64,000 bases of DNA from Thermobifida alba (GTDB lineage: Bacteria > Actinomycetota > Actinomycetes > Streptosporangiales > Streptosporangiaceae), in NCBI RefSeq assembly GCF_023208015.1, contig NZ_CP051627.1, positions 3,516,422 to 3,580,421 on the forward strand. Direction: 5' to 3'. The position numbers and the translations under genes are program-made. The notes under the pieces were generated by a model. That model searched no databases. It had not been told where the DNA came from and saw nothing but the letters and a program-made list of their open reading frames with translations. Below, one piece after another: positions 7,301-38,997 of the stretch. Position 1 is the stretch's first letter; each line of letters opens with the position of its first letter.

Positions 7301-7376
7301 GGGCCATTAGCTCAACTGGCAGAGCAGCGGACTTTTAATCCGCGGGTTCAGGGTTCGATCCCCTGGTGGCCCACCA
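7301..7376 (+). tRNA. tRNA-Lys (anticodon TTT), CCA encoded
   Basis: A complete cloverleaf can be drawn. The acceptor arms GGGCCAT and GTGGCCC pair with one G-T wobble; the D-loop carries TAGCTCAACTGGCAGAGCA; the anticodon loop is CTTTTAA, giving TTT; the T-arm is GGGTTCGATCCCC. The CCA is encoded at 7374-7376. It is the last clearly core feature before the accessory region, and tRNA 3' ends are common integration points, but I found no repeat of this 3' end further right. Confidence 0.97.
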
Positions 7377-9939: not shown

Positions 9940-9959
9940 TCGGGAAGAGGCACCTCAAA

Positions 9960-10060: not shown

Positions 10061-10104
10061 TGGTGTGAAGATCTATGATCGACACAGAAGCAAGGGAGGC
10101 TGGT

Positions 10105-14095: not shown

Positions 14096-14126
14096 GCGCT
14101 CAGGGGTCCTTTCATCCGGTTCCCGA

Positions 14127-15374: not shown

Positions 15375-18300
15375 AGGGCTCCTTGGGTTCGCGCTGTCCA
15401 GCTCAGGGCGGCGGCGCGGGACAGACGACGGCAGGCCCACTCCGAGTCCGGGGAAATGCCCACCATGCGGGCATGGTGCAGGTGCAGAAGGTCTGCAAGC
15501 ACCGTGTCCGGGGAAATCTGCTTCTCGGCGGTGAGTGCCGCGCGGTACCGGAGAAGCGCCGCGCGCCGCAGTTCCCACGACGCCGCGATGTCTTCACCAC
15601 CTGGCACCTCCAGAAGCGCGGACCGTCCGCGACTCGGGTCTGCCAGGCGGATCATCTGGTCGCGTGTTTCGCGAGACGGTGCGGGAGCTGAAGATGCGCG
15701 CCAGTGACGAATCAGCCAGCGCATTCCGTCACTGACGCTGCCTGCGACCGTGACGGCGATGTCGACCATGCTGGCGGCAGTGACGGCGTGCAGATGCGGG
15801 CCCTCACGGTGGTCGACCGCTCGCAGTTGCGCGACTGCTGCGGCAGAATCGGCGGCAAACACCGACTCTGCTGCAGCCATGGCCACGTCCTGTCCGAAGC
15901 GCCCGGTCTCCGGATAGTAGGTGTCGAACTGCACCTGGCTCACGAGGCCACGCTCGTACAGCTCAGTCGTCCACGCGGTGACCCGAGCAGCGACCTGCCC
16001 GAAGTCGTCGGCTTCCCGAAGTCGGATACGCAAGCGCAGATGCTTGTCCGGATCGTGGTAGCGGAGAAACCACCACTCGGGTTCCTTTTCCCACGCGGCC
16101 AGCAGGGCTGGCAGATGCGAGGTCAAAAGAGCGGTCTGCCGGCCGGGGTTCCCGTACAGCTTGACGTAGAGCCACTCACTGCTTCCGGGAAGGTGCCCGT
16201 GGGCACGGCTGAGCACGCACCTCGACCAGGTTCGCTGCGGTGCAGCGGGTGGAGCTGTGGCGGCTAGGGGGATGACGATGTCGTGAGCGCGTCCGTCGAT
16301 CCACCCCATCTCATCTTCTTCCGGTGCCTCGCGTATGGTTGCGTGTCCGTTGCGCGCCAGGTCGGCCCGGAGCACAGCAAGATGGGCGGACTCGTCCAAG
16401 TCCAGGCGGATTCGGCGATCACCGTCGCCGAGATAGACCGAGGCGGGCACACGAAACTGGTCCCGCCACGCGTCCCACCTGTCCTTCCAGTTCCGCCATG
16501 GTTCGGCAGAACCGGGAAAGTCTGTCGCAGTCAGCGTCCACATAGCCGGAGACAGAATCGAACGCCGGTAGCGGATTCTGGGCAGGAACGGCAACCTGCT
16601 GGCCGCTCCCCAGGAAAACGGAACGCACGCTGCCGTACGAGCCGTAGAGATCTCGCAGAGGAACCGCAGGAGCGGTTGAGCGTGGTGGGTGAGTTCCACA
16701 GCGCTGAACAGGATCGGCTCCACCGGCTGTCGGCGGGACACAGAGACCAGGTAGAGCCGCTGGGCATCAGCGGTCACCGCGAGGTCGTCCAACGAGACGG
16801 CTTCCTTGCCGTCCGGGCACTGTTCGGCCAAGGGGACCAGGAGAGGCAGCACAGCGGGACTTCTTGTGATGTTCTCGGCCCGCCGGGACACCGTTGGGCC
16901 GGACACCTGCACCCGCAGTGCGTTCTGACAGACTGCGGGTAGTTCGGCGTAGGCCCGGAACATTCGTTCCTGGTCACCCGTGTCGAACAGGTCGAGAAAC
17001 CGCCCGGCCGTGGTGCCAGCCGCGCGGGACATTCCGGTGACCGCAAGTCGGAACTCGCCTCGACCGAGCGCACCGGTACTGGGCGAGTAGATGCGGCACC
17101 GGAGTTCGGTATGCGGCTGCACCCGGTACTCGCCAAGGCTGGCAGCCGCAAGGTTGTCGACCAGTGCGTCGTCGATGACGACTTCGGTGTGCTGCTGCAC
17201 CGCGGCGTTCTGCGCCAAGACGAGCAGGGCCATGTCGCGTTTGGACAGGCCGGGAACGCTCGGAGGAGCCAGACGTGAATTCCGGTAACCGTGGGGGAAA
17301 CCGAGACCGCTGTCGGCATCGAGCAGTTCCCGGATGCCGACCAGGGAGCCGAGTCCGTACCGTTCGCAGAACCTTCGGTGGTAGTCCTGCCAGGCCGGAG
17401 TTCCGTGGGGGTGCGGTCCCAGCCTGGCCAGCGCCTCCGCCGTACGCTCGGCTTCCCGCACCACCGCATGCGGCAGGACCAAGTCACCGTCGAGCCGAAG
17501 ATCCACCGCGATCGGCCGCTCTGCGGTACAGAGGGCAGCCATTCTCCGGGAGACATGCGATCGAAGACTGCGTCCCCGCAGAGGAGGGGTCGCGTTGTGG
17601 TGGAGCAGATCGGCGTGGATCCCGCACAACTCGTCCAGCAGACCTGCCGCCCCCTGCACCGTGTCGGCTTGTACCGCGGTCAGCGCTTCAATGACGTGGC
17701 CCAGCGGGTCGGTGACCGTCATCGGTGGACGCAGACTGGTGACCAGGAGACGATGTTCCACCAGCCTGGTCAGCATTTCGTTGATCACAGAGTCCGGCTT
17801 GTCCGGAAAGTTGGATGCCAGTTTGTCGGCCAGGTCCCCCAGACGAACCGGGGTCTGAGCAGCCTGAAAAACGGTGTGAACCGCTTCGGTGTAGCGGACC
17901 GATACTTCTGCGGGCCCGGTTCCGTGCACCGCTCCGCTCTGCCAACATCCCACCACCAGCCGTCCGTCCCGAACGAACGCAAGGTTGTTGCGCACGACCA
18001 GTAGTCGGTACCTCAACTCGGGGATGGCTTCCAGACGCGTGATCACTCCGTCGAGCCAGGTGGAGTCGACCCGCGCGACGGCGCGATGCCCTCCACCGAA
18101 CCGCACCGCAGGTGTGTGACCGAGCCGGACAGGTGCCACCCCGGAGAACAGACCGAACGGTGTCGCCCGGCTTGTCGACCGTAACAGGTACCGAATCAGC
18201 GACAGCACCGCTCGGCGGACCTCTTGCCTCCGCACTCGGCTCCCCTGACACACCTCTTGGACTCGACGAGCCAGGTCTGGGCTGGCGATCTCGACACTCG

Positions 18301-18454
18301 CCGCGAACCCGTCGGATGCCCACACCTGCCGCAGCCAGTCCACCCAGGACGTCAGGTTTTTCTCCGCGTCATCGGTCAGGTCCGGCCACGGTGGCACGCT
18401 TCCGGGGCAACGGGCTGCTGCTCGCACCACGGCCGCGTCCACGAACCTGTACAA
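15371..18454 (-). CDS. lanB: LanB lantibiotic dehydratase, full length
   Basis: About 1027 residues with both halves of a class I dehydratase: an N-terminal glutamylation domain, including the diagnostic R-A-T-P-F-G-L-F-S-G near residue 100, and a C-terminal elimination domain from about residue 760 (W-L-Y-V-K-L-Y-G). LanB uses glutamyl-tRNA to activate Ser/Thr of the precursor and then eliminates glutamate to give Dha/Dhb. The frame opens at a GTG at 18460, but AGGAG overlaps that codon; the TTG at 18454 has the proper 5-base spacing and is probably the true start, with an in-frame TGA just upstream. It follows lanA after a strong hairpin. Confidence 0.93.
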   Translation of the reverse strand: MYRFVDAAVVRAAARCPGSVPPWPDLTDDAEKNLTSWVDWLRQVWASDGFAASVEIASPDLARRVQEVCQGSRVRRQEVRRAVLSLIRYLLRSTSRATPFGLFSGVAPVRLGHTPAVRFGGGHRAVARVDSTWLDGVITRLEAIPELRYRLLVVRNNLAFVRDGRLVVGCWQSGAVHGTGPAEVSVRYTEAVHTVFQAAQTPVRLGDLADKLASNFPDKPDSVINEMLTRLVEHRLLVTSLRPPMTVTDPLGHVIEALTAVQADTVQGAAGLLDELCGIHADLLHHNATPPLRGRSLRSHVSRRMAALCTAERPIAVDLRLDGDLVLPHAVVREAERTAEALARLGPHPHGTPAWQDYHRRFCERYGLGSLVGIRELLDADSGLGFPHGYRNSRLAPPSVPGLSKRDMALLVLAQNAAVQQHTEVVIDDALVDNLAAASLGEYRVQPHTELRCRIYSPSTGALGRGEFRLAVTGMSRAAGTTAGRFLDLFDTGDQERMFRAYAELPAVCQNALRVQVSGPTVSRRAENITRSPAVLPLLVPLAEQCPDGKEAVSLDDLAVTADAQRLYLVSVSRRQPVEPILFSAVELTHHAQPLLRFLCEISTARTAACVPFSWGAASRLPFLPRIRYRRSILSPAMWTLTATDFPGSAEPWRNWKDRWDAWRDQFRVPASVYLGDGDRRIRLDLDESAHLAVLRADLARNGHATIREAPEEDEMGWIDGRAHDIVIPLAATAPPAAPQRTWSRCVLSRAHGHLPGSSEWLYVKLYGNPGRQTALLTSHLPALLAAWEKEPEWWFLRYHDPDKHLRLRIRLREADDFGQVAARVTAWTTELYERGLVSQVQFDTYYPETGRFGQDVAMAAAESVFAADSAAAVAQLRAVDHREGPHLHAVTAASMVDIAVTVAGSVSDGMRWLIRHWRASSAPAPSRETRDQMIRLADPSRGRSALLEVPGGEDIAASWELRRAALLRYRAALTAEKQISPDTVLADLLHLHHARMVGISPDSEWACRRLSRAAALSWTARTQGAL

Positions 18455-18478
18455 ATCCACTCCTCAGGGTTGGGTACT

Positions 18479-18504
18479 CGCGGGGTGGCGTCCGCCACCC
18501 CGCG
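18479..18504 (-). promoter_or_regulatory. Hairpin between lanA1 and lanB
   Basis: A perfect 12-bp inverted repeat (18479-18490 and 18493-18504) with a 2-base centre fills the gap between precursor and dehydratase genes. No T-run follows on the minus strand, so it probably stabilises the lanA message end or attenuates read-through, giving more precursor than enzyme. Confidence 0.7.
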
Positions 18505-18530
18505 GCGTATGGGAGTCGAGGCTGGAGGGG

Positions 18531-18698
18531 TCAGCAACCGCTCTGGGCCGGGCAGGCACTCTCGCAGGTGGTCCCGCACCCGTCGTCGGTGAGCCGCATC
18601 AGGTCGTTGATGACGGGACCGGACTCGACGATGCTGATGTCGAGGTCGAACTGGGTGTTTTCCCCATCGATCGCGGTCTGAGGGGTCTGGACGGTCAT
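18531..18698 (-). CDS. lanA: FxLD-family lanthipeptide precursor 1
   Basis: A 55-residue precursor. The leader carries the FxLD box as F-D-L-D at 17-20, the motif that LanB-type enzymes of this group use for recognition. The C-terminal core has four cysteines (41, 45, 49, 55) among Thr37, Thr43, Thr44, Ser47 and Ser53, enough for up to four rings. It contains D-D-G-C-G-T-T-C; Asp39 before Gly40 is a natural target for the isoaspartate-type methyltransferase encoded next to it. The ATG at 18698 has GAGGAGGA at proper spacing; the longer frame upstream runs into the methyltransferase. Cleavage site and ring pattern cannot be read from sequence. Confidence 0.92.
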   Translation of the reverse strand: MTVQTPQTAIDGENTQFDLDISIVESGPVINDLMRLTDDGCGTTCESACPAQSGC

Positions 18699-18762
18699 GC
18701 ATTCCTCCTCGTAGTGACGTTGCCCGAAATGTTCCAGGGCTTCCGGCCCGGCTTCCCTGCGG

Positions 18763-20007
18763 TCAGGGCCAGGAGACGACGATGCGGGTGTGCTTCTTGT
18801 CGACGACCCTTCCGGCGGGAAGTGCGGCATCGGGGGTGGCTGCGGGAAACACCTCGATGCGCGCTCCCGGTCCCCCGCGGTGGTCGCGGTCCCAGGTCCG
18901 GATGTGGTCGATGTACTCCTCGGCGAGGCGTTCGGAGTCGGGGCCGTGTGCGTAGGCGCCGAACTCGAACCTGGTGCGGCTCTCGTCGACCGGACGTGCC
19001 GAGGCCCGGTAGACGAAACTGCTCCCCGACACGATCGCTTTGCCGCCGTACAGCGCAGACCTGCTGGTCAGCCCGCTGTCGACCGCCTCTTTCGTGGCTT
19101 TGACCAAGCCGAAGCCGTCGGCCACGGTGGCGATCCACAGGTCCAGGTCGTGGAGTGGCTCGCTGTCGCCGAACTCCATGCCTCCCCAGCGCTCGGTCCG
19201 CGGTCCGAGCAGGGCCTTGCGCAGGCCGTCGGTGTCAACGGGCCGGTCGGTGTCGATCAGCAGGCTGACCCTGTCCTCGTCCAACGTGACCACCTGCTCG
19301 CTGTGGGCCTCGGCTCCCTGCATCGGCACGAAGGAGCAGAGCTGGTAGTCCCGGCTCACCAGGCGCTCACCTGCACGCTCGAAGGCCACCGAGCGCGTCA
19401 GCCCGCGCAGCCGCAGCGGAACGACGAGCCTTCCGTCCTCGGTGAGCTGCTCGATCCATGCGGGTGGGATGTCCCATGCGCCCGCGGTGACGATGATCCG
19501 GTCGAACGGGGCGTGTTCTGGAACACCGTGGGCGGCGTCGCCCAGCGCCACGTCGACCCACCCGTATCCGGTGGCGTCGAGGTAGCGTCGGGCTCGGCCG
19601 GTGATCTCCGGATCGATGTCGACGGAGACCACTCTCCCGGTCCGACCGACCAGTTCGGCGATCAGTGCCGCGTTGTAGCCGCCGGAACCGATCTCCAGTA
19701 CCCGCATGCCCGGTTCGATCCGGGCCTGCTCCAGCATCACGGCCTGGATCTCCGACGCGGACACCACGCTGGTGGCCGTCCCCGCACCGTCCTGCTTCCG
19801 GTGCAGCGTGGTCATGGTGGCGTAGGCCCGCTCCAGCGGCTCGCCCGGGGCGAACAGGTGCCGCGGCACCACGCTGAAAGCAGCAGCGACCGGATCGCTG
19901 CGGACCGCTCCCAGATCACGCAGTTCACCCACCATCTTCTCGCGCAGGTACTCAGCGCGGTCGGTCTCGCCGGTGCTGCTGGTCTTCGTATCTTGATGTT
20001 CTCTCAT
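18763..20007 (-). CDS. FxLD-system methyltransferase (protein-L-isoaspartate O-methyltransferase-like)
   Basis: A 414-residue protein. Residues 20-215 or so form a PIMT-like SAM methyltransferase: S-V-V-S-A-S-E-I-Q-A-V-M-L-E-Q at 80-94, SAM motif I V-L-E-I-G-S-G-G-Y-N at 103-112, and V-D-I-D for the ribose contact. A further 200 residues form the C-terminal extension typical of the FxLD subgroup. Related enzymes in lanthipeptide clusters methylate an Asp side chain of the modified peptide, which then cyclises to aspartimide and opens to isoaspartate. I use the ATG at 20007 with GGAAGA upstream; a longer frame to 20187 lacks homology. It is the first gene of the operon, 64 bases before lanA1. 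Confidence 0.9.
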   Translation of the reverse strand: MREHQDTKTSSTGETDRAEYLREKMVGELRDLGAVRSDPVAAAFSVVPRHLFAPGEPLERAYATMTTLHRKQDGAGTATSVVSASEIQAVMLEQARIEPGMRVLEIGSGGYNAALIAELVGRTGRVVSVDIDPEITGRARRYLDATGYGWVDVALGDAAHGVPEHAPFDRIIVTAGAWDIPPAWIEQLTEDGRLVVPLRLRGLTRSVAFERAGERLVSRDYQLCSFVPMQGAEAHSEQVVTLDEDRVSLLIDTDRPVDTDGLRKALLGPRTERWGGMEFGDSEPLHDLDLWIATVADGFGLVKATKEAVDSGLTSRSALYGGKAIVSGSSFVYRASARPVDESRTRFEFGAYAHGPDSERLAEEYIDHIRTWDRDHRGGPGARIEVFPAATPDAALPAGRVVDKKHTRIVVSWP

Positions 20008-20711
20008 TCGGTGGTCTTCCGCGTTCTGGGGCCGGCGGGAGAAGTCCACCGGCTGGAGGTGCACGGGGAATCCGGTCTTCGTGAAATTGGGTTCCCTCTC
20101 CTCGTCTTCACCGAAGTGGTACGCGGAGAGGTGACGTGAAAACGAGTTTCTGGGCACGGGGCATGGAGGTCCATGCCGAGCTGTCATAAATTTCGGCGTA
20201 CTTCTTCACACCACCAAGAAAGAGCCGCTTTTCACACCATTTGACCAGTTTGCCGCTTTTCTGGCCTCAAGGGTTCCCTGTGAAGACGGAAGAACCTATG
20301 TGGAGAAACCTTCGACAGAATTGAGAGGATCTGGCAGGCGGCTCCATCATCGTGGCAGGCCACGCCAGCCCCGAAGGCCCTCCGGTGGTGCCTTCCCGGT
20401 AGCGATCTGACCCTCAGGCATCAGCGCTGTAGAAAGCCTGGGCAAGGACATGAGTGGTCGAAGGCCCTGCCAGGACACTTGCCCGGCGCTCGAAACACCG
20501 AGCGACGGAACTCCGGGCAGGCCGGAAGTAGAAGTCGGACATCACAGCCACGGCTTCACCCCGCTCTCACGGCAGGGCCACGCCGTGACCGTCCGGTGCC
20601 CTTGGCGGACAGACGACTCGACGACCATCCTTGGACAGCCGATCCGCAGAGCCTTCCCCCTGGGAGCCCTTTGGTCTTCTGGCGCTGTTCACCCCTGGCG
20701 GGTCCGGGTGA
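20008..20711. other. Intergenic stretch upstream of the FxLD operon
   Basis: No gene is recognisable here. The part nearest the methyltransferase (about 20160-20280) has lower GC and probably holds the operon promoter on the minus strand. It contains two direct copies of TTCACACCA (20205-20213 and 20231-20239, 26 bases apart) and two copies of GCCGCTTTT (20224-20232 and 20252-20260). The right half looks like decayed sequence. Confidence 0.5.
20205..20260 (-). promoter_or_regulatory. Direct repeats in the FxLD operon promoter region
   Basis: TTCACACCA occurs at 20205-20213 and 20231-20239, and GCCGCTTTT at 20224-20232 and 20252-20260. Repeats spaced 26-28 bases, about 200 bases before the methyltransferase start, could be activator sites, though this is only a pattern and no exact copy was seen upstream of the second FxLD locus. 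Confidence 0.35.
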
Positions 20712-21476
20712 CAAGTTGGAGGGAAGGAGTTGCTCGCAGCGGAACAACTGTTGGCTTTGAGCGCACAAGCGGCAGCGATGATTCTGACGAAGCTCGGAGA
20801 AACCGACCTGGCTTGGATCGCGGCGGAGCGTGGACTCCAGGCAGCGCAACGATCCGGGGATACTGCCGTCATAGGTTCGCTGTTGAGGTCAGGCGTGCAT
20901 TCGCTCCACTCTTATGGGCAGGGCGCAACCTCCGTGGAGATGGCCGAGCAGGCCGCTGCTTACCTTCGAGGAGAAATGGACTGGTCATCTCCTAAAGAAC
21001 TCTCCGTGTACGGAACTCTTCTGCTGCCCGGAGCCGTTGCCGCCGCACGCGAAGGAGACCGACGCGCGGCCCGTGACTACCTGGAAGAGTCCGAGAAGGT
21101 GGCTTTGCGTCTGGGGATAGATCGAAACGACCTGTGGACGTCTTTCGGGCCGACAAACGTCGCTGTCCACCGTGTAGTGGTGGCTAACTCCCTCGGTGAC
21201 GTGGACGCCGCTATCCAACTCGGTCGAAGAATCGATCCTTCAGGGCTCCCCATTGAACGACAGGTGCGGCACGCGCTGGAGTTGGCTTCAGCCTACGTTA
21301 AGCGCAACCAGATCGATGCGGCGGTAGGCCAGGTACTCGAAGCAGAAAAGCTGTCCCCCGAACAGACTCGGCGACACGTGATGAGCCGTCAGATAGTCAC
21401 AGCGATGCTGCAGACCAAGTCCGGAAAGCGAAACCGCGACCTGGTGTCGCTGGCCATACGGATGAAAGCTCTCTGA
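20712..21476 (+). pseudogene. TPR tail of an XRE-type regulator, N-terminus missing
   Basis: About 250 helical residues including K-L-G-E-T-D-L-A-W-I-A-A-E-R, the typical start of the TPR sensor half of large actinobacterial XRE regulators. The DNA-binding half is absent and an in-frame TGA (20709-20711) sits just before the homology. The only early start is a TTG directly touching GGAAGGAG, which is not a usable spacing. I read it as a 5'-truncated remnant. Confidence 0.6.
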
Positions 21477-24055: not shown

Positions 24056-25333
24056 ATGACTGATGTGGCCGCCGATCCCGAGAACGCGGCAGAACTAAGG
24101 GACCAGGTCGTGGACACCCTCATCCGGGACGGCGTGATCGTCTCCCCACAGGTCGAGGCGGCGATGCGCAGGGTTCCACGGCACCGGTTCACGCCGGAGG
24201 CAACCGTGGAGGAGGCCTACCGCCCCTATGCGGCCGTAGTCACCAAGAAGAATGAGCACGGGATCTCCATCAGTTCGGTCTCAGCTCCCCAGATCCAGGC
24301 GATGATGCTTGAACAGGCCGCCATCGAGCCGGGAATGCGGGTTCTGGAGATCGGTTCGGGCGGCTACAACGCAGCCCTGATCGCTGAACTCGTCGGCGAT
24401 TCCGGCCAGGTCACCACTGTCGACATCGACCAGGACGTCACGGCCCGGGCCGAGCGGCTGCTGGCGGAGAACGGATACCCGCAGGTGCGCGTCGTCCTCG
24501 CCGATGCTGAGGACGGACTCGCTGCCCACGCCCCCTACGACAGGATCATCGTCACCGCCGGGGCGTGGGACATCCCTCCGGCGTGGATCACGCAACTGAC
24601 CGAGCGGGGGCGGCTCGTGGTGCCGCTACGGCTGCGGGGCCTGACCCGTTCGATCGCGTTCGAGCGCCGCGGTGGCCACCTGCTCGGCCTCTCCGCCCGG
24701 GCGTGCGGATTCGTCCCCATGCAAGGCGCCGGCGCCCACCAGGAGCAACTGCTACTGCTGTGCGGCACGGACGAGATCGGCCTGCGTTTCGACGACGGGC
24801 TGCCGGGGGACCCGAGCCTGCTGGACAACACCGTGCGCACCCCCCGGCTGGAGGTGTGGACCGGGGTGGTGGTCGGGCGCACCGAACTGGTCGACACCCT
24901 GCAGTTGTACCTGGCCACGGCCCTGCCCGGGTTCTGCATCATGGCTGTCGACCCCGCACTGGACACGGGCCTGGTCGAGCCCAACCACCCCTCGTTCTCC
25001 CTCGCGGCAGTCGACGGCGGCAACTTCGCCTACCTGCGGGTCCGTCCCACAGCCGACGACCGGTCCGTGGAGTACGGCATCCACGCCTTCGGCCCGCAGC
25101 GGGAGGCGTTCGCCGAGAAGATGGCCGGACACGTGCGGACCTGGGCCCGCGAGCACCGCGGCGGTCCCGGCCCGCAGATCCGCGTCTTCCCGGCCCGCAC
25201 CCCCGACGAGCAACTGCCGGGACACCTGGTCCTCGACAAGAAGCACAGCCGCGTCACGTTCTCCTGGCCCTCGGCAACAGCCGCGGACCAGGCCGTTCCA
25301 CCCGCCTCTTCGGAAGGAGACGATCACCGGTGA
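24056..25333 (+). CDS. FxLD-system methyltransferase, second copy
   Basis: A 425-residue paralogue of the methyltransferase at 18763-20007, with the same layout: S-S-V-S-A-P-Q-I-Q-A-M-M-L-E-Q at 73-87, SAM motif I V-L-E-I-G-S-G-G-Y-N at 96-105, V-D-I-D, and the long C-terminal extension ending in K-K-H-S-R-V-T-F-S-W-P before a short tail. Large blocks are nearly identical to the first copy, so the two are recent paralogues or came from related clusters. ATG at 24056 follows AAAGGAAG. The open frame further upstream has no homology. The TGA overlaps the precursor ATG by one base. No truncation or missing motif is visible, so it should be functional. Confidence 0.9.
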   Translation: MTDVAADPENAAELRDQVVDTLIRDGVIVSPQVEAAMRRVPRHRFTPEATVEEAYRPYAAVVTKKNEHGISISSVSAPQIQAMMLEQAAIEPGMRVLEIGSGGYNAALIAELVGDSGQVTTVDIDQDVTARAERLLAENGYPQVRVVLADAEDGLAAHAPYDRIIVTAGAWDIPPAWITQLTERGRLVVPLRLRGLTRSIAFERRGGHLLGLSARACGFVPMQGAGAHQEQLLLLCGTDEIGLRFDDGLPGDPSLLDNTVRTPRLEVWTGVVVGRTELVDTLQLYLATALPGFCIMAVDPALDTGLVEPNHPSFSLAAVDGGNFAYLRVRPTADDRSVEYGIHAFGPQREAFAEKMAGHVRTWAREHRGGPGPQIRVFPARTPDEQLPGHLVLDKKHSRVTFSWPSATAADQAVPPASSEGDDHR

Positions 25334-25533
25334 TGAGCACCAGCCTCGCTGGCGGTAGCACGGCACTGGCCGATCCCCCCGGAATCGACGACGAGTTCGC
25401 GCTCGATGTGAAGGTCGTCCTGGCCACCCACCCCAACGGCAAGCTGCAGTGCAGCACCAGTGACGGCTGCGGCAGCACCTGTAACGACGGCGCCTCGGCC
25501 TGCAACTCCAGCATCGAGCCTCCCCTGTCCTGA
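25333..25533 (+). CDS. lanA: FxLD-family lanthipeptide precursor 2
   Basis: A 66-residue precursor with the FxLD box as F-A-L-D at 22-25. The core has Cys40, Cys46, Cys50 and Cys57 with many Ser/Thr (41, 42, 43, 48, 49, 55, 59, 60). It shares D-G-C-G-[S/T]-T-C and a following S-A-C with precursor 1, and Asp44 corresponds to Asp39 there. A GTG at 25330, in frame and directly before the ATG, has the better spacing from AGGAG (10 bases) and may be the true start, adding one residue. The local lanB is destroyed, so maturation would need the enzymes of the other locus. Confidence 0.9.
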   Translation: MSTSLAGGSTALADPPGIDDEFALDVKVVLATHPNGKLQCSTSDGCGSTCNDGASACNSSIEPPLS

Positions 25534-25608: not shown

Positions 25609-26539
25609 GTGCGACGGTCAGCGGTCGGCTACCGGTGGCGAGGCGGGGCGCTGCTGCGGGCCAGCACTGCACCCCCTGGACTGGACGTGCCCCGCGACCC
25701 GGCTCTGCTCGACGACGGGGCCGTGCCCCGGCAACGGGCCTGGATCGCTGACGTCTGGGCTCGCAAGGACGTACGGGACGCCTTGGCTGCCGCCAGCCCG
25801 GCACTGTGTCGGCAGGTCGAGGCCGTGGTGTCAGGAGCATGCACGGAACCGCGGCGAGTGCGCAGAACCGTCCTTTCGCTGGTTTCCTACCTGCTGCGCT
25901 GGCAGCGGCGCGCTACCCCCTTCGGTCTGTTCGCGGGCGTCGCCCCCGTAGGAACCGCACACGAACCCAGTGTGGCCTGGGGTGGAAAACACCAGGTGTC
26001 AGCCCGGCCGGACGGCGAATGGCTCACCGACGTCATCAGCCGCTTGGACCAGTGCCGTGAGCTGCGTGAACGGCTGCATGTCGTTGCCAACGACACCGGG
26101 CAGGCACGGGGCGACCGGTTCGTGGCGCCTGGACCGCCCGCTGACGGCCGCGCACGGCACATGGCTCCGCTCGAAGTATCGGTACGCCGCACTCGCCCTG
26201 TGGCAGCGGCCCTAGAAGAGGCCCGTACCCCGATCCGTTACGGGGAGCTTTGCGCTCGTCTCGCCCGACTGTTCCCCACCGCGGGAGAGGACCGGATCAG
26301 GGCGGTCCTGGACGGCCTGATCGACCAGAACCTGCTTGTGAGCAGCCTGTGGCCGCCGATGACCTGCCTGGACACCCTGGGCTATGTGTGCGCTGAACTG
26401 GACGCCGTCCGTGCCCAGGGCATCGACGCGATCGCGCCCCTCGTGGCGGAACTCCGCACGATCCGCGACGACCTCGCCGAACGCAGCCCTGGGGCCCTTG
26501 CAGAAAGCAGCCGGGACTCCGTAGTGGAGCGGTTATGGA
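25609..26539 (+). pseudogene. Truncated LanB dehydratase, cut off at a CRISPR array
   Basis: About 310 codons collinear with the first third of the intact LanB, including R-A-T-P-F-G-L-F-A-G and the later N-L-L-V-S-S-L-W-P-P-M-T segment (compare R-L-L-V-T-S-L-R-P-P-M-T). The GTG at 25609 follows AGGAAGGGAG. Homology ends at V-V-E-R-L-W, directly before the first CRISPR repeat, and no further LanB sequence exists to the right. The frame then reads through two repeats, which appear as [10 protein letters not shown], to a stop at 26835. About 70 percent of the gene is missing, including the whole elimination domain, so it cannot dehydrate a peptide alone. Confidence 0.9.
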
Positions 26540-26723
26540 GTTGCGATCCTCAGCCACCCCGGAGGGTGGCTGCCACACGCTCCCGCACGACGACGCCTTG
26601 GTTCTGTAGTGGGGTTGCGATCCTCAGCCACCCCGGAGGGTGGCTGCCACACCTGTCCCGTGTACACGCTGCAAGCCGGTGCGGGGTTGCGATCCTCAGC
26701 CACCCCGGAGGGTGGCTGCCACA
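26540..26723 (-). CRISPR. Short CRISPR array: three repeats, two spacers, no cas genes
   Basis: Three identical 38-base repeats at 26540-26577, 26614-26651 and 26686-26723 are separated by unrelated spacers of 36 and 34 bases. Each repeat has a perfect 9-bp stem with a 4-base loop (CAGCCACCC / GGGTGGCTG). Read on the minus strand the repeat ends in GAGGATCGCAAC, a 3' end like the 5' handle of type III and some type I repeats, so I infer transcription leftward with a leader to the right. No cas gene is present in the window. Confidence 0.92.
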
Positions 26724-27150
26724 GCACCTGAAGTGCGCAAACACCACATTGCTTGGCGACGCTCACGACTCAAAAAAGGGTGAAAGTTCCCAAGCAGACA
26801 CAAACCTCCTTGAGAACCCCCCTGTAAATCCATGACCACTTCAGGTTCCCAACCACAGCACCAACAAGACCGCCCCGGGGAAGAAGCCAGGCCGGATGCT
26901 ACTCCACTCCTCCGACACAGACCTGGGAACCGACTCTTGAATCCAAGAGAGCAAAGATCCCCGGCCGACGCGGACCGTGGTCACACCGTCCCCTGAACCT
27001 CCTCACCCGCACCATCCGCACCCCCGCCCCCGACCCCCCCGGTGGGTTCCCGATGATCTTGGCCCCAGTGCCCTCCTCGGTCGCGTTCATGGCTCTGGGG
27101 CCATAGCCGCCAGCGGCTCTGGGTGAGGCGCCCGTGCGGACGCTTCCGTA
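26724..27150. other. Gene-free stretch right of the CRISPR array, candidate leader
   Basis: No gene is visible. The first 120 bases are clearly less GC-rich than the surroundings (for example ACTCAAAAAAGGGTGAAAG near 26770) and lie where the leader of a leftward array would be. The rest looks like ordinary intergenic sequence before the tetR gene. Confidence 0.45.
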
Positions 27151-27916: not shown

Positions 27917-29299
27917 ATGCCTGCCCCGCTCCGGCGCCTCCGCCTGTCGCTGTTCGCCCTGACCCTGATCGTGGGCCTGGGAATCTCCTCGTGGGTGACC
28001 CGCACCCCCGCCATCCGCGACGCGGTGGACGCCTCCACCGCCGGGATGGGAGTCCTCCTGCTCGGCCTCTCAGTCGGCTCGATGGCCGGAGTGCTGACCG
28101 CGGGGCCGTTCGTGCGCCGCCTGGGCGGCCGTCCCGTGATCGCGGTCGGCACCGTGCTGGCGGTCGCCGGAGTCGGCGTGGTCGCCCTCGCCACCGCCGC
28201 GTCCCTGACCGCCGGGGTGTTCGTCGGGCTGCTGCTGGTGGGGGTCGGCGGGGGACTCGGCGAGATCGGCCTGAACATCGAGGCCGCCGCGGTCGAGGCC
28301 GCCACCGGCCGTCCCGTCCTGCCGATGCTGCACGGCAGCTTCAGCCTCGGCACCGTGATCGGCGCCCTGGTCGGCATCGGTCTCACCGCCGTCCGCTTCC
28401 CCGTGGTCTGGCACCTGCTGGCCGTCGCCCTCCTCATGGCGGTGCTCGCGCTCTGGGCCCTGCCGGGCGTTCCCGCCGGCACCGGCCGGACTCCCGCCGC
28501 GGCCCCGGCCCGCGCGGACGCTCCGGCCGGGCGGCGGCCGAGCGTGTGGCGCGACTCGCGCCTGCTGCTCATCGGTGTCGTCGTGCTCGCCATGGCGTTC
28601 GCCGAGGGGGCGGCCAACGACTGGCTGCCCCTCCTCATGGTCGACGGTTACGGGGCGTCCGAGAGCGGGGGCTCCCTGGTCTACGCGGGCTTCGCCGTCG
28701 CGATGACCGTCGGCCGGTTCGCGGGCGGTCCCGTCCTCGTCCGGTTCGGCCGCGCCGCCGTGCTGTCGGCCAGCGCGCTGTGCGGCGCGGTCGGGGTCAC
28801 GGTCGCGGCGCTGGCGTCCCATCCCGTGGTCGCGGGCGTCGCGGTGGCGCTGTGGGGGCTCGGGGCGTCGCTCGGGTTCCCCGTGGCGATCTCCGCGGCC
28901 GGCGACGACCCCGAGCGCGGCGCCGAGCGGGTCAGTGCCGTCGCGACCAGCGGGTACCTCGCCTTTCTCGTCGGCCCACCGCTGCTCGGCCTCCTCGGCG
29001 AGCACGCCGGGCTGCGCCGGGCCATGTTCGTCGTCGTCGCCCTGCTGCTGGCCGCCGCGGTCGCGGCCAGGGCCGCTGTTCCCGGGCGGCGGGCGGAGCG
29101 GGACGGTCGCGGCCCGGTGAAGTGGTCCGGACCGCCCCCGCCTCCGGTGCCGTCCTCGGCGGCGGACAGCCCCGGGGAGGCCCCGGTGCCCGGGGTGGCC
29201 GGCCGGACGGCTGACCGCGCCGCCGCCCGGCCGACCGCCGTCGCTAGTACGGGAACACGCCGTCGGTGGCGGCGCTCCCGCTGCAGTGGTCGCCCATGA
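27917..29299 (+). CDS. MFS transporter under TetR control
   Basis: About 460 residues. The first 385 form 12 hydrophobic helices with an acidic E-I-G-L-N-I-E segment in the first half and N-D-W-L-P-L in the second, resembling the YbjJ-type fucose permease-like/drug exporter group of MFS. The last 75 residues are a Pro/Arg-rich, probably disordered tail of uncertain reality. The ATG at 27917 lies right after the operator palindrome, so the transcript must have a very short or no leader. With its TetR neighbour it forms a ligand-inducible efflux pair. Confidence 0.83.
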   Translation: MPAPLRRLRLSLFALTLIVGLGISSWVTRTPAIRDAVDASTAGMGVLLLGLSVGSMAGVLTAGPFVRRLGGRPVIAVGTVLAVAGVGVVALATAASLTAGVFVGLLLVGVGGGLGEIGLNIEAAAVEAATGRPVLPMLHGSFSLGTVIGALVGIGLTAVRFPVVWHLLAVALLMAVLALWALPGVPAGTGRTPAAAPARADAPAGRRPSVWRDSRLLLIGVVVLAMAFAEGAANDWLPLLMVDGYGASESGGSLVYAGFAVAMTVGRFAGGPVLVRFGRAAVLSASALCGAVGVTVAALASHPVVAGVAVALWGLGASLGFPVAISAAGDDPERGAERVSAVATSGYLAFLVGPPLLGLLGEHAGLRRAMFVVVALLLAAAVAARAAVPGRRAERDGRGPVKWSGPPPPPVPSSAADSPGEAPVPGVAGRTADRAAARPTAVASTGTRRRWRRSRCSGRP

Positions 29300-29657
29300 T
29301 CCGCGAGTAGTAGAGGCCGTCGCCGTCCCAGTGGCCGGCAGCGGTGAACCGGACCGGCCAGTACACCGGAGGGCAGGGAACGAAGCGGGTCGGCAGCGCC
29401 TCGAAGTCGCCGTCGACCGCGCGCAGCGAGTCGCAGGCTTCCTCGGGGGTGGGGTGGGTTCCCCCGTCGGGGCCGCACTCCAGGGTGAAGAAGTGGAAGG
29501 AGCCGCCGGAGCCCTCCAGCGGCTGGATGATGAGGCTGAGGAAGGCGTTGGGTCCGTCGGGCGGGGAGTCGGCGGCGGCCGGGGCCGCGGTGAGGGGGAG
29601 GACGCAGGCGGCGACGGCGAGGGCGGCCGCGGTTCGACGAAGTGCCGGTACACGCAT
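29244..29657 (-). CDS. Secreted subtilisin inhibitor-like (SSI family) protease inhibitor
   Basis: A 137-residue protein with a signal peptide (residues 1-29: R-R, hydrophobic core, A-A-P-A-A-A). The mature part shows the SSI pattern: four cysteines at 61, 75, 95 and 125 for two disulphides, and C-P-P-V-Y-W-P-V around the reactive site where Streptomyces SSI has C-P-M-V-Y-D-P-V. The P1 position is therefore Pro97, unusual for an inhibitor and perhaps altering target choice or abolishing inhibition. ATG at 29657 with GGAAAGG upstream. It overlaps the tail of the MFS frame on the other strand, which casts doubt on that tail. Confidence 0.87.
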   Translation of the reverse strand: MRVPALRRTAAALAVAACVLPLTAAPAAADSPPDGPNAFLSLIIQPLEGSGGSFHFFTLECGPDGGTHPTPEEACDSLRAVDGDFEALPTRFVPCPPVYWPVRFTAAGHWDGDGLYYSRIMGDHCSGSAATDGVFPY

Positions 29658-29918
29658 GGGGGGACCTTTCCGCTGGGACGGCGGGACTGCGTCGTGGGTG
29701 CTCCCACCGCCTCGGCGGCGCCCGTCGCGCCCCCGGGGCGGTCCACGGCACGCCTCCACTGTAGTAAGGCCCCTGCCGGGAGGGGAACCCTCCGCAACCG
29801 TGCTTCTCCCCCGCGTCACGGGAGGCCGGTTCCCGGCCCGGCCGCCCGCGCGGCAGGCGTGCCCGGGGCACGGTTCTGCGAACGCGGACTTTAGGCGCGC
29901 CGCGCCAGGCTTCGGGGC

Positions 29919-30539
29919 ATGGCCGCCTCCTACTGGAACCACAACACGCATTACCACCGGCTCGTGCTGGACGAGGTGCCGGACGGCTGCGCCGCGGCGC
30001 TGGACGTGGGCTGCGGCGACGGCCTGCTGCTGGAGAAGCTGGCCGGGCGGGCCCGGCGGGTGACGGGGGTGGACCGCTCCCCCGAGATGGTCCGCCTGGC
30101 CCGCGAGCGCACCGCCGGCCTGGGGTCGGTGACCGTCCTGGCGGCGGACTTCCGCGACGCCGTGGGGAGCCTGCTGCCGGAGGGCGGGTACGACTTCGTC
30201 AGTGCCGTGGCGGTGGTCCACCACTGGGACTTCGCCGAGGCGGTCCGGGGGATGGTCCGCCTGCTCGCGCCCGGCGGCCGACTGGTGGTCGTCGGCCTGG
30301 CGCGCAACCGCACCCCGGTGGACTGGGCGGTGAGCGGCCTCGGGGTGCCCGCGGCGCGCTGGCTGGCGTGGCGGCACGGCGGCGAGCACGATCCGGTCGG
30401 CATGCCCGTCGCCGACCCGGTCCTGTCGTGGGGCGAGGTCCGGGCGGAGGCGCGGCGGCTGCTCCCGGGCTGCCGGTTCCGCCGCCACCTGCTGTGGCGG
30501 TACTCGCTCACCTGGCGCAAACCGCTCCGCAGCCGCTGA
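29919..30539 (+). CDS. Class I SAM-dependent methyltransferase
   Basis: A 206-residue protein with SAM motif I L-D-V-G-C-G-D-G-L-L-L at about 28-38, acidic V-D-R-S and a post-motif with H-H-W-D-F and L-A-P-G-G-R-L. It resembles small-molecule methyltransferases of the Methyltransf_11 type. The substrate is unknown, and the neighbours do not suggest a pathway. Confidence 0.82.
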   Translation: MAASYWNHNTHYHRLVLDEVPDGCAAALDVGCGDGLLLEKLAGRARRVTGVDRSPEMVRLARERTAGLGSVTVLAADFRDAVGSLLPEGGYDFVSAVAVVHHWDFAEAVRGMVRLLAPGGRLVVVGLARNRTPVDWAVSGLGVPAARWLAWRHGGEHDPVGMPVADPVLSWGEVRAEARRLLPGCRFRRHLLWRYSLTWRKPLRSR

Positions 30540-30633
30540 GACAGCGCTGTTTGCCAGGGAGCGATCCGGGGGAAGCGCATTACGATGTTGATCATCTTCC
30601 CCCGCTCCCCCTACGTGGACGAGGATCGCGCTG

Positions 30634-31455
30634 ATGAGTGACGACCGCTACGAGACCGTGTGGCCGCCCCCCGAACTCGACTTCAACAAGCCCACCATCG
30701 CCCGCGCCTACGACGCACTGCTCGGCGGCAAGGACAACTTCGCCGCCGACCGCGCCCTGGCCGACTACGCCTGCCAGCACATCCCCGGGCTCAAGGAGTC
30801 CGCCGTGGAGAACCGCAAGGTGCTCGTCCGCGGGGTGCGGTTCCTCGCCGGCGAGGCCGGCATCGATCAATTCCTGGACCTGGGCAGCGGGCTGCCCACC
30901 GTGCAGAACACCCACGAGGTCGCCCAGGCGGTCAACCCCGACGCGCGTGTCGTCTACGTGGACATCGACCCGATGGTGCTCACCCACGGCCGGGCGCTGC
31001 TGGCGAAGAACCCCAACACCTCGGTGTTCACCGGCGACGTGCGGGAGCCGGAGGTCATCCTCGGCCACCCCGACGTGACCCGCATGATCGACTTCGACCG
31101 TCCCGCCGCGATCATGCTGGTGGGCATGCTGCACTACCTGTCCCCCGAGGTCGTCGACCCGGTGGTGGCGGCCTACCGGGAGGTGCTGGCGCCGGGCAGC
31201 TACCTGTTCATCACCTCGCTGGTGGACACGGGGCTTCCCGCGCAGCAGGAGCTGGCCCGTATCACCCGGGAGAACCTGGAGGAGGGCTGGGCGCGCACCC
31301 CGGCCGAGATCGAGCGCCAGTTCGGCGACTTCGAACTGGTGGAGCCGGGTGTCGTCTACACCGCGCTGTGGCGTCCCGACGAGCCGGTCGATCCCGACAG
31401 CCTCACCCCCGGGGAGCAGTTGGGAATGGCCGGAATCGCCCTCAAGAAGTCCTGA
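30634..31455 (+). CDS. SAM-dependent methyltransferase, DUF574 type
   Basis: A 273-residue protein of the actinobacterial DUF574 (Methyltransf_19) group. It starts with the signature N-K-P-T-I-A-R-A-Y-D-A-L-L-G-G-K-D-N-F, then the SAM site F-L-D-L-G-S-G-L-P-T and V-Y-V-D-I-D-P. These occur in many copies in streptomycetes; substrates are mostly unknown. A terminator shared with the lsr2-like gene follows. Confidence 0.87.
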   Translation: MSDDRYETVWPPPELDFNKPTIARAYDALLGGKDNFAADRALADYACQHIPGLKESAVENRKVLVRGVRFLAGEAGIDQFLDLGSGLPTVQNTHEVAQAVNPDARVVYVDIDPMVLTHGRALLAKNPNTSVFTGDVREPEVILGHPDVTRMIDFDRPAAIMLVGMLHYLSPEVVDPVVAAYREVLAPGSYLFITSLVDTGLPAQQELARITRENLEEGWARTPAEIERQFGDFELVEPGVVYTALWRPDEPVDPDSLTPGEQLGMAGIALKKS

Positions 31456-31536
31456 ACGGAGCCTCCCGCCGGTCTCCGCCGTTTCCGCGCGGCGGGCCGA
31501 GGAGTCCGCCGCACAGCAGTACAACGGTTTCCCAAA

Positions 31537-31576
31537 AACCGTGAAGGGGACGGTATATCACGTCCCCTTCACGGTT
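31537..31576. terminator. Bidirectional terminator between methyltransferase and lsr2 paralogue
   Basis: A perfect 16-bp inverted repeat (31537-31552 and 31561-31576, loop of 8) sits between convergent genes. Confidence 0.85.
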
Positions 31577-31591
31577 GCCGGGCGCCACCGC

Positions 31592-31924
31592 TCACCCGTG
31601 GACGGCCTCGTATTCCTCCACGATGGCCTTCGGGATGCGGCCGCGTTCACTGATCTGCTTGCCCTGCTGTTGCGCCCAGGCACGGATCTGCGCACTCCTC
31701 TCCCTGCTGAGTACCGTCCGCTGCTTGCTCTTGGGCGCACTTCGCCTGCTCGGAACCCTGCGGGCGGCCTCGATGAACGGAGCGAGTTCCTCACGCAGCC
31801 GCTTGGCGTTGGAACTGCTGAGGTCGATCTCGTAGGAGGAGCCGTCGAGCGCGAACGTGACTGTCTCCTCGGCCTCACTCCCGTCAAGGTCATCAATGAG
31901 AAGGACCTGGACTTTCTGTGCCAT
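31592..31924 (-). CDS. Lsr2-family nucleoid protein, paralogue 1
   Basis: A 110-residue Lsr2 protein. Residues 1-58 form the dimerisation domain (M-A-Q-K-V-Q-V-L-L-I-D-D-L-D-G, conserved I-D-L). A basic linker follows, and the C-terminal AT-rich-DNA-binding domain contains the essential R-G-R loop (E-R-G-R-I-P). Lsr2 is the H-NS-like silencer of AT-rich and horizontally acquired DNA. ATG at 31924 with AGGAGA upstream. The second, more Ala-rich paralogue is 14 kb to the right. Confidence 0.92.
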   Translation of the reverse strand: MAQKVQVLLIDDLDGSEAEETVTFALDGSSYEIDLSSSNAKRLREELAPFIEAARRVPSRRSAPKSKQRTVLSRERSAQIRAWAQQQGKQISERGRIPKAIVEEYEAVHG

Positions 31925-32351
31925 GAATCTCTCCTGAGAAAACCGGAAAGCAATTGGCCTCGTCGGCCAGTACTCCCCCTTCATCCCCTGAGCACGGAGC
32001 TCAAACCTGGGAGGGAGATCCACTGGTCCAGTACCCCTGAAAACAACAGAATTGTTGCACGTGTTCCGGCCCCGCGGATACCGGGTTCCGTGGCCGGGAG
32101 ACCGGCTTCCCGCTTTGCGGTGTCCTCGGGCCCGGTCTTGGGCCGCCGGAACGGATCCCGCTGATCGGCCGCGCCGGACGGTCCGTCGCGGCTTTCCGTC
32201 CGCGATCGGGGTCCGGTGGGGGAAGCGCCGCACCGGACACCGTGTCCCGGAGGCCGGGTTCCCGCGCGGGAAATACGGTCGTCTTCCGCGGTCGCGGATA
32301 TTAGGGTGATCGCCCGGAACCCCGTATCGAGGAATGCCGTGAGGAGCGTTC

Positions 32352-33542
32352 GTGGGCACCGATGGATTCTCGCCCTCCCGTCTCGGCCGTCTGCGCCGGG
32401 CCCTGTCCGCCCATGTCGCGCGTGGTGCGCTGCCCGGCCTGGTGGCGCTGGTGCACCGCCGGGGCGAGACGCACGTCGAGGTGGTCGGCACGACGGCGGT
32501 CGGGGGGACGGTTCCGATGCGCCGCGACACGGTTTTCCGCATCGCGTCGATGACCAAGCCGATCGTCGCGGCGGCCTCGATGGTCCTGGTGGAGGAGTGC
32601 CGCCTGCGCCTGGACGACCCGGTGGACCCGTTCCTGCCCGAACTGGCCGACCGCAGGGTGCTGCGGCGGGTCGACGGCCCGTTGGACGACACCGTTCCCG
32701 CGCGGCGTCCCCTCACCCTGCGGGACCTGCTGACCTCCCGGTGCGGTTTCGGTCTGGTGGCCGATCCGCCGGACACGCCGATCCAGCGGGCGATGGACGA
32801 GGCCGGGCTCTCTCCCGGTCCGGTTCCGTTCCCGCACTCCGCCGACGAGTTCCTGCGGCGGCTGGGGGAGCTGCCGCTGGCGTGCCAGCCCGGTGAGGCG
32901 TGGCTGTACCACACCGGCTTCGACGTCCTGGGGGTGCTGATCGAGCGTGCCGCCGGCCAGCCGCTGGAGTCCTTCCTGCGGGAACGGGTCCTCGACCCGC
33001 TGGGGATGCGCGACACCGGCTTCCACCTGCCGGCGGAGCGGACGGAACCGCTGCCTCCGTGCTATCTCACCGATCCGCGCACCGGCACGCCCGTGGAGGT
33101 GGCGGACGCCCACGACTGGCACCGTCCGCCGGTCTTCGCCTCGGGCAGCACCGGGCTCCTCTCGACCGCCGACGACTGTCTGGCGTTCCTGCGGATGCTG
33201 CTGGACGGGGGCCGCCACGGGGACGAGCGGGTGCTGTCCCGCCGTTCGGTGGAGTTGATGACCACCAACCAGCTCACCCCGGAGCAGCGGGCGGGTGCGA
33301 GGGTGGTGCTGGACGACCACGCCGGGTGGGGCTTCGGGCTGGCCGTGACGCTGCGCCGTGACCTGCTGGAGGGGTCTGTGGGCCGGTTCGGCTGGTCGGG
33401 CGGCTGGGGCACCACCGGCTACGCCGACCCCGAGGAGGGCCTGGCAGGCGTCCTGCTGACCCAGCTGGGCCTGGACTCCCCGCATTCGCCCCGGCTCTTC
33501 TCCGACTTCTGGGTCTCGGTCTACCAGGCGATCGAGGACTGA
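32352..33542 (+). CDS. Serine beta-lactamase-like hydrolase (class C/esterase family)
   Basis: A 396-residue protein of the beta-lactamase (Pfam Beta-lactamase) superfamily. The nucleophile motif S-x-x-K appears as S-M-T-K at about 67-70, followed by a Y-H-T segment in place of Y-x-N near residue 183. No signal peptide is seen, so it is probably a cytoplasmic esterase or D-aminopeptidase-like enzyme rather than a resistance beta-lactamase. GTG start with GAGGAG upstream. Confidence 0.82.
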   Translation: MGTDGFSPSRLGRLRRALSAHVARGALPGLVALVHRRGETHVEVVGTTAVGGTVPMRRDTVFRIASMTKPIVAAASMVLVEECRLRLDDPVDPFLPELADRRVLRRVDGPLDDTVPARRPLTLRDLLTSRCGFGLVADPPDTPIQRAMDEAGLSPGPVPFPHSADEFLRRLGELPLACQPGEAWLYHTGFDVLGVLIERAAGQPLESFLRERVLDPLGMRDTGFHLPAERTEPLPPCYLTDPRTGTPVEVADAHDWHRPPVFASGSTGLLSTADDCLAFLRMLLDGGRHGDERVLSRRSVELMTTNQLTPEQRAGARVVLDDHAGWGFGLAVTLRRDLLEGSVGRFGWSGGWGTTGYADPEEGLAGVLLTQLGLDSPHSPRLFSDFWVSVYQAIED

Positions 33543-34244
33543 GGGCGGTTCAGCCGCCGGTCCGTCTGGCGGCCGCGGGCCCGTTCGCTGCCCCGGCACC
33601 GCGGTCCGGCGACCGCGTGGTCCCGAAGGCCGAGGAGTGTCCTCCGCCGCGGGCCTTTCGGTCCGGGCTCCGGGTCCGTTCGGGGGCGTGGGATCGGGAG
33701 GCGCCCCCTTTCGGGCCGCGCCGTGTCGGGCGCGGTCGTCGCCGCGTCGGAAGGGGAAATCCGGGCTGTTCCAGTCACCCGGAAAACACCATAGGGTCGT
33801 ACCGTAAAGGGTTCCGCTCTCCTTCGTTTTTGTTTCGTGCCATCTTCAACCGATCCGCTCCGCCCGCGCAGCCCACGGACGGCACGGAACTCTTCAGAAC
33901 GCATTCGGACAGAATCGGACACCTCGGAGCACCGACGTGCACGGATACCGGCGCCGCTGAACCGGCTACGCGGACCGGCCGCCCCGCCCAGCGAATATTC
34001 AGACCGGACATAGCGGACTCATCCCTTGTGCCGGGGATTGCGTCGCACGACCGTTCCGGTAACTTCTTTCCCACGGCTCAACTTTTCGTGAAGGGATTCA
34101 CCGTCTCTTCCTCACGGCGACGGCCCGCCCTTTCCGGGTCGTGTCCGGGCAGGCGACCCATTCACTTTCACGACCAAGGAGTGGAGACTCCGTGATCGTT
34201 TGTCCCAGCACCAGCGCGTCCGCCGGAGTCCGGGAGGTACGAGG
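33543..34244. other. Intergenic stretch, no gene seen
   Basis: About 700 bases without a convincing gene. Parts are clearly less GC-rich (33760-34100), which fits a promoter region for the downstream DNA-binding-like gene. No clear repeat or RNA was recognised. Confidence 0.5.
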
Positions 34245-34811
34245 ATGACCTCCGACCTGCTCAGTCCCAGCGGACCACACCCCTCACTGCGCCGGTCCGC
34301 GCCCTCGACCGTCTACCGGGTCGCGCCCGACGCCCTCCCCAAACGGGTGCGGCGCGGCTCCGACGGGATGTTCTACGGCGAGGTACCGCTGATCCCCGTC
34401 CCCGAGGACGAGGTGAACCGCCGTCCCCGGGACACGCGGGGACGCGGGGAGCCGAGCCGGTCGTCCCCTCCCACGGCAGTCCCCGACCTGGACGGACACG
34501 ACAACCGACCCGACCCCATGACCGCCACCACTCCAGCGGAGTTCGTGGCGGCCATGCGTCTCTTCCGCCGCTGGGCGGGCACCCCCTCCTACCGGAGGAT
34601 GCAGCAGAACTGCGGCAACCGGTGCTCCGCCACCTCGTTCCACACCGCTCTGAGCCAGGACAAGCTGCCTAAACTCCCCCTCGTCGAGGCGTTCATCATC
34701 GCCTGCGGAGGCACCGACGAGGAGTACCGCCGCTGGGCCACCGCCTGGCGCAGGCTGGAACTGGGAGGCGGGGACACCCCCACCCCCGCGTCCCGGCGTC
34801 CCGAGCCCTGA
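34245..34811 (+). CDS. Small helix-turn-helix-like protein
   Basis: A 188-residue protein with a disordered Pro/Arg-rich first half. The last 90 residues (from E-F-V-A-A-M-R-L-F-R-R-W) resemble the short helical DNA-binding module of actinobacterial XRE-related proteins: R-R-W-A-G-T-P-S-Y-R, a middle S-x-x-S-F-x-x-A-L, then V-E-A-F-I-I-A-C-G. The function is unknown and probably regulatory. ATG at 34245 with GGGAGG upstream. Confidence 0.72.
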   Translation: MTSDLLSPSGPHPSLRRSAPSTVYRVAPDALPKRVRRGSDGMFYGEVPLIPVPEDEVNRRPRDTRGRGEPSRSSPPTAVPDLDGHDNRPDPMTATTPAEFVAAMRLFRRWAGTPSYRRMQQNCGNRCSATSFHTALSQDKLPKLPLVEAFIIACGGTDEEYRRWATAWRRLELGGGDTPTPASRRPEP

Positions 34812-34964
34812 GCCGACGCGGCGCCCGTCCCGGCGCCGGTCCGACCGCCGAGTCGCGTGCCCGATCCGTGCCTGTCCGGTCTGCCGCGGCGGCCGTGCGG
34901 ACGGCAGTGCCGCCGGGGGCCTCGCAACCACGGACCCGTCGCCCCCGGCGGCACGTTCAGGGGG

Positions 34965-38862: not shown

Positions 38863-38886
38863 GCGGGAGGCGTCCGGGCATAGGCA

Positions 38887-38951: not shown

Positions 38952-38997
38952 CGGGTGTCCACCGTGGATTCGCCTGGGCGATCCGATCGTGGTCGCC

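Follow-up and report, generated by a model that had tools for sequence, protein, structure and literature searches.

An orphan type I-C CRISPR array adjoins a truncated lanthipeptide dehydratase gene in a variable island of Thermobifida alba

The window analysed here, a 64,000-nucleotide stretch of the genome of Thermobifida alba, contains a short CRISPR array that abuts the remains of lanB2, a gene for a class I lanthipeptide dehydratase (Table 1). Its repeats and its leader mark it as a true CRISPR array of type I-C, located on the minus strand, and as an orphan remnant it is nothing unusual. The most plausible reading of the lanB2 edge is a join made when other DNA of the island met the older array. 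We assign a probability of roughly 80% to the overall explanation that the leader-bearing array is the remnant of a lost type I-C locus, and that an event in the island joined a segment of the lanB2 cluster to its leader-distal repeat. The odd junction would then be the trace that a vanished CRISPR system left in the island.

Table 1. Features of the array, its surroundings and the left edge of the island (window positions)
Feature	Position	Strand	Remark
tRNA-Lys(ttt)	7301..7376	+	left edge of the variable island
PIMT-type methyltransferase (Pfam PCMT)	24056..25333	+	remnant cluster
lanA2, candidate precursor gene	25333..25533	+	same remnant cluster; by eye, no Pfam match
lanB2', first ~310 codons of a class I lanthipeptide dehydratase	25609..26539	+	cut at the repeat
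CRISPR repeat 3, 37 bp	26540..26576	-	leader-distal, oldest; adjoins the lanB2 fragment
Spacer 2, 37 bp	26577..26613	-	
CRISPR repeat 2	26614..26650	-	
Spacer 1, 35 bp	26651..26685	-	leader-proximal
CRISPR repeat 1	26686..26722	-	leader-proximal
Type I-C leader, ~266 bp	26723..26989	-	homologous to the L040 leader (cas2-array interval) and to the leaders of the orphan modules of G001 and G002
Inverted-repeat motif of the leader, TTGGGAACCT ... GGTTCTCAAG	26809..26852	-	by eye

The first-pass annotation had placed a CRISPR mini-array at the break point of lanB2, and this was borne out: three repeats alternate with two unique spacers of even length (37 and 35 bp), and lanB2 is cut there. The annotation had described identical 38-base repeats. 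The identity of the three 37-bp copies stands, and the 38th base agrees in all three too, but this base differs among relatives, and the unit is better given as 37 bp plus one variable base. The array had also been placed inside the gene, but it sits at the end of the gene fragment, and the two point towards each other, lanB2 on the plus strand and the array on the minus strand. The repeat RNA folds well (z −3.6). The T. alba genome is a single contig of 4,903,256 bases, in which the 38-base repeat pattern had three matches at up to three mismatches, all in the window array; the reversed control pattern had none. With one contig and no second array bearing this repeat in it, an assembly collapse between two distant arrays, which the annotation had considered, is not suggested.

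Relatives of the repeat allowed its type to be assigned. A first search found it in 6 of 149 genomes, and a degenerate pattern found it in 17 of the 341 genomes of the family, the T. alba genome being counted both times; the genome contig collection yielded five stretches from three organisms. Ten of the fetched repeat-bearing loci hold a cas operon, and it is of type I-C in all ten. PADLOC matches were obtained for Cas3c, Cas5c, Cas8c, Cas7c, Cas1c and Cas2c at the locus of Marinactinospora thermotolerans (L040), and for Cas4c, Cas3c and Cas8c at that of Marinitenerispora sediminis (L034). All seven type I-C genes were found by tblastn in the other eight. The repeat and leader of the window array are cognate to these operons.

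One end of the array carries a homolog of the leaders of complete loci. The alignment with the M. thermotolerans leader gave 70% over 258 columns, which include the array, and those with the modules of two congeners, G001 and G002, gave 75–82%, the repeats being taken in. An inverted repeat (about TTGGGAACCT ... AGGTTCCCAAG) lies ~100 bp upstream of the first repeat. It was seen by eye in most of the left and right type I-C leaders of the family that were aligned, and is possibly an adaptation or regulator site. No clear leader similarity was found at L057, L060 and L065, whose arrays have no cas genes in the fetched stretch. The leader is to the right of the array, which the first-pass annotation had missed; the leader-distal and oldest end is therefore the end that touches lanB2.

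In eight of the ten cas loci (L034, L040, L058, L059, L061, L063, L064 and L068), the operon has a co-oriented array on either side. L062 runs off the end of the fetched stretch, and L066 has one array and one weak opposite match. Such co-oriented arrays are direct repeats that could excise the operon. For the window locus, cas loss by recombination between the two flanking arrays is not supported: its product would carry the left leader, and those of Thermobifida have higher scores with right leaders (L061_R, L040_R) than with left ones. For G074, this route may still apply.

The only Cas1 locus of the T. alba genome is of type I-E (Cas1e, Cas2e, Cas5e, Cas7e, Cas8e and Cas3e). Cas8c is present in the genomes of M. 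sediminis (G045) and M. thermotolerans (G047), and was absent from T. alba as well as from G001, G002, G003 and G074. A tblastn search with the seven type I-C Cas proteins found none in the window or at L035–L039, L055–L057, L060, L065 and L067. Because the genome-wide searches returned no type I-C Cas1 or Cas8c, we filed the locus as an orphan array and not as a system. Left without cognate Cas proteins, the array presumably no longer functions. Should a type I-C system arrive, then, to judge from the intact repeat hairpins and the leader, the Cas5c of the newcomer could process the array transcript and draw on both guides. A lone repeat-like 37-mer was seen at L067 (7282–7318, G066), upstream of a long frame that by eye resembles a rho gene.

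Residues 52–293 of the 310 encoded by the lanB2 fragment match Pfam Lant_dehydr_N at profile positions 2–238 of 649; this domain is partial and the C-terminal domain is missing. At E ≤ 1e-30, lanB2 had matches in 103 of 297 family genomes (T. alba counted). Seventy stretches of the genome contig collection fit the lanB2 pattern, and none encodes a relative. The closest relative (L042 of G300, a frame of 1046 aa, 53% identity) covers residues 2–308, to position 26532, and several other matches stop at residues 289–302. In an alignment with LanB1 and 11 relatives, translated as far as fetched (801–871 aa), the last conserved-looking stretch, V-V-E-R-L, ends at residue 309; the last ~15 residues are weakly conserved. 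The first-pass annotation had the LanB homology end directly before the first repeat, and this held: the gap is 0–8 bp by the longest alignments, and the Pfam profile sets its upper limit at ~52 bp. For the neighbouring methyltransferase, the first Met within the homologous part was taken as the start, and 24137–25333 was scanned against Pfam.

The rest of lanB2 was not found in the 4.90-Mb genome, neither to the right of the array nor elsewhere. The 480-aa part on the C-terminal side of L042 matched only lanB1 in the window, apart from a chance-level match (E 0.67, the window query being somewhat longer). Compared with the whole T. alba genome, this side matched three places at 36–41%, lanB1 among them, which is paralog level. 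The first-pass observation that the missing part is not on the other side of the array was thereby confirmed, with paralog-level matches alone turning up genome-wide. The annotation had also envisaged the missing part beside another array with the same repeat; no such array exists in the genome and the part was not found.

The array lies in an island that is variable among congeners, and whose syntenic right flank begins at 29226. In T. cellulosilytica TB100 (G001), the same flanks enclose a single repeat and leader, whose orientation is unchanged. In the third congener (G002), a three-repeat array in the same orientation is located 7.5 kb from the same tRNA-Lys; beside it, the 3' end region of the tRNA-Lys is present a second time (183 aligned bp), and the right flank follows 24 kb further on. 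The two copies of this region (L039, 2249–2430 and 10404–10584), one of them beside the array leader, are such as an integrative element leaves. In G003, 5.5 kb separates the outer flanks (window 1–2423, and 30619 on), a tRNA-Lys match on the opposite strand lies in this interval, and the repeat was not found. None of G001–G003 has a lanB2 ortholog (best match 43% in G001, 42% in G002 and none in G003). An actinobacterial sRNA, Rfam Ms_IGR-5, was detected at 38880–39061 on the minus strand of the window.

Since a leader–repeat module occupies the same island in the same orientation in G001 and G002 without lanB2, the array was probably there first, with the lanB2 piece joined to its leader-distal end later. 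The segment 20716–26539 is a mosaic whose pieces match different places of G002 and of the T. alba genome itself. The lanB1 region (11748–20715) is 97.5% identical to G001, as compared with 79–83% for the neighbouring 29226–34826 and 81–92% for the other flanks. An identity so far above that of the flanks means that island DNA was exchanged recently, which weakens dating by shared position.

The leader-distal repeat ends of related modules were compared by eye in a handful of loci, which is not a full count. At L038 (G002), a regulator gene with 82.5% identity to a G001 gene across 606 bp breaks off 1 bp short of the repeat. At L036 (G074), a frame resembling an integrase by eye begins at the repeat edge; this fragment had no homolog in plasmids or phages. 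A frame that by eye is a 2H phosphoesterase enters the degenerate distal repeat of L035. The distal repeat of L037 (G001) is a perfect palindrome, and L039 (G002) has no long frame at its distal join. These cases suggest that repeat ends are fragile or preferred for joins. The first-pass annotation had suggested that the repeat could be mobile or rearrangement-prone. Mobility was not shown, but rearrangement gains some support from the distal ends of G002 (the join 1 bp off), G001 (the palindrome) and G074 (the degenerate repeat). L038 also contains two leader-plus-one-repeat modules (1620–2405 and 9898–10422), 91–93% alike, in the same orientation and 8.3 kb apart. A ~395-bp element splits one of them, and an inverted copy of this element lies at 7486–7879.

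The window spacers had no match in phages (34 of the 37 bases of spacer 2 being queried) and none in viral contigs as exact 22-mers. In plasmids, spacer 2 had no match and spacer 1 had three weak ones (E 0.3–0.9). Across the 341 family genomes, at up to three mismatches, both found the array itself only. When compared with the ten type I-C operons, spacer 2 reached 22/37 (shuffle mean 22.9) and spacer 1 reached 23/35 (shuffle mean 22.1, 95th percentile 23). A match to a cognate cas gene with a PAM was seen for the T. cellulosilytica array alone. The only full spacer of this array (L037, 9858–9892) matches cas5c of relatives at 28/35 (L061), 26/35 (L058) and 25/35 (L059 and L040), and TTC occupies the PAM position. 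The PAM used for type I-C in the relevant part of PMC6519985, GAA, is its complement.

We compared 302 spacers of the fetched loci, the two of the window included, with the ten operons, leaving out the own locus each time. The L037 spacer ranked first; none of 1000 shuffles reached 28 and one reached 26. Among the best 14 spacers, it alone has listed matches preceded by TTC. In a scan of operon positions 1500–3600, its best match fell on the same codon-aligned cas5c site, E-F|S-A-S-F, with the TTC Phe codon at the PAM, in eight of the ten operons (scores 20–28); the operons of L034 and L066 have no match at this site. The eight are not independent witnesses, because they are homologous and TTC is a conserved Phe codon. 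The nine spacers of L035, L036 and L039 gave no convincing match: in cas3 of L064, one L035 spacer had a TTC-flanked match of 24/34, which exceeds its 95th percentile (23) but stays within its null maximum (26). A protein-level comparison of 12 spacers with the cas reading frames did not pick out even the cas5c match of L037. Going by the nucleotide match and its PAM, the L037 orphan array probably holds a natural anti-cas spacer. Our literature search found no paper on the window locus or on anti-cas spacers in Thermobifida.

With the above results, we propose the following course of events. A type I-C CRISPR-Cas locus would have stood in the tRNA-Lys-linked island before the compared Thermobifida species separated. 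Its cas operon would have been lost, and the leader-bearing array would have remained on the minus strand of an island that, as a mosaic, gained and lost segments. One event would then have joined a PIMT-type lanthipeptide segment (the methyltransferase, the candidate precursor and the first third of lanB2) to the leader-distal repeat, and the rest of lanB2 would have been lost. The join and the missing part can be read directly from the DNA; their order and the illegitimate recombination behind them we infer. Several points count against this explanation. Loss of lanB2 in G001 and G002, rather than gain in T. alba, also fits; after recent exchange in the island, a shared position is no proof of age. 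The neighbourhood of the G002 array differs, as it lies far from the right flank and beside a second tRNA-end copy, and no relative with an intact lanB2 at the window locus was seen. The genome-wide search for type I-C cas genes in T. alba, moreover, covered Cas1 and Cas8c.

The alternatives fare less well. That the three repeats are an unrelated tandem intergenic repeat could be argued from there being two spacers only and no cas genes nearby, but the idea is refuted by the relatives, since repeat and leader match complete type I-C loci, and we give it next to no credence. Insertion of the array and leader into an intact lanB2, with later deletion of the other half of the gene, would account for a join so close to the repeat edge, and modules of a leader and few repeats do occur at several places in G002 (three) and G074 (two). 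Yet the missing part lies neither beyond the leader nor elsewhere in the genome, and modules occupy the same island in two congeners that lack a lanB2 ortholog; we regard this course as quite unlikely. The first-pass annotation had offered both options: a CRISPR locus recombining into lanB2 is not supported, and capture of the gene next to an existing array is favoured. A further alternative makes the repeat edge the work of the adaptation machinery. Here a long broken DNA would have been attached by one of its ends, through Cas1–Cas2(–Cas4), to the spacer side of the then-first repeat; repair would have fixed the fusion, and later spacers would have been added on the leader side. Coding DNA that ends at the leader-distal repeat edge in the window (lanB2) and at L038 (the regulator), and the integrase-like frame that begins there at L036, are what such joins would leave, and linear targets are described, for one species, as taking one-ended insertions more often than complete ones. 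However, the intact G001 sequence has no TTC beside the G002 join, other distal ends are degenerate or palindromic (L035 and L037), the L039 join has no coding frame, and the L036 case has no intact homolog. Moreover, long DNA does not appear as a substrate in the literature passages on integration. Altogether, an adaptation join seems highly improbable.

The orphan arrays of the genus might also have been kept as a block to incoming type I-C systems, with crRNAs made via the newcomer's Cas5c aiming its Cascade at its own cas genes. The T. cellulosilytica spacer, with its TTC-flanked cas5c match and first rank, fits such a role, and a precedent exists in Escherichia coli, whose orphan type I-F arrays bear anti-cas spacers according to Almendros et al. 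2016 as cited in PMC8616872. The two window spacers stay within the shuffled range, though, the spacers of L035, L036 and L039 lack convincing matches, and the recurrence of TTC comes from homologous operons, with L034 and L066 unmatched; on balance we think a barrier role unlikely. A bolder combination, in which solo leader–repeat modules are retained as type I-C barriers, the distal repeat edge is a preferred join for foreign DNA and the lanB2 fusion is a product of the array, is very unlikely in our view. For the window array, the barrier role and the role of the repeat edge in joins are open leads.

Under the preferred reading, an older array met by other island DNA, the relatives suggest that the array was at the island before the gene fragment. 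If confirmed, the cas5c-matching spacer would extend the anti-cas idea from E. coli type I-F to actinobacterial type I-C. The joins at or near repeat edges raise the question of whether repeat ends are break or join points.

The type I-C loci of M. thermotolerans (L040) and M. sediminis (L034) share with the window the 37-bp repeat family, a homologous leader on the same side and a similar spacer length (mostly 34–38 bp). They differ in having two arrays of 5–26 recognised repeats around a full cas operon, as opposed to three repeats and no cas genes. The module of T. cellulosilytica TB100 has a homologous leader, a repeat with one difference, and the same island and orientation; unlike the window array, it consists of one full repeat and a palindromic distal repeat, holds the cas5c-matching spacer and has no adjoining lanB2. 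Class I lanthipeptide clusters with a PIMT-type methyltransferase are a known kind, and RiPP-associated PIMTs are mentioned in the literature. The window shares with them a PCMT-family gene, a candidate precursor and the start of a lanB gene side by side; unlike them, it has a lanB2 truncated at ~30%, the remainder of which was not found. In comparison with the E. coli type I-F orphan arrays, as presented in the passages of PMC8616872 that deal with them, the window array is of type I-C, actinobacterial and has spacers of its own without an anti-cas match. It resembles them as a small array left after cas loss, and the likeness reaches beyond the window, as the T. cellulosilytica array also has a spacer against a cognate cas gene.
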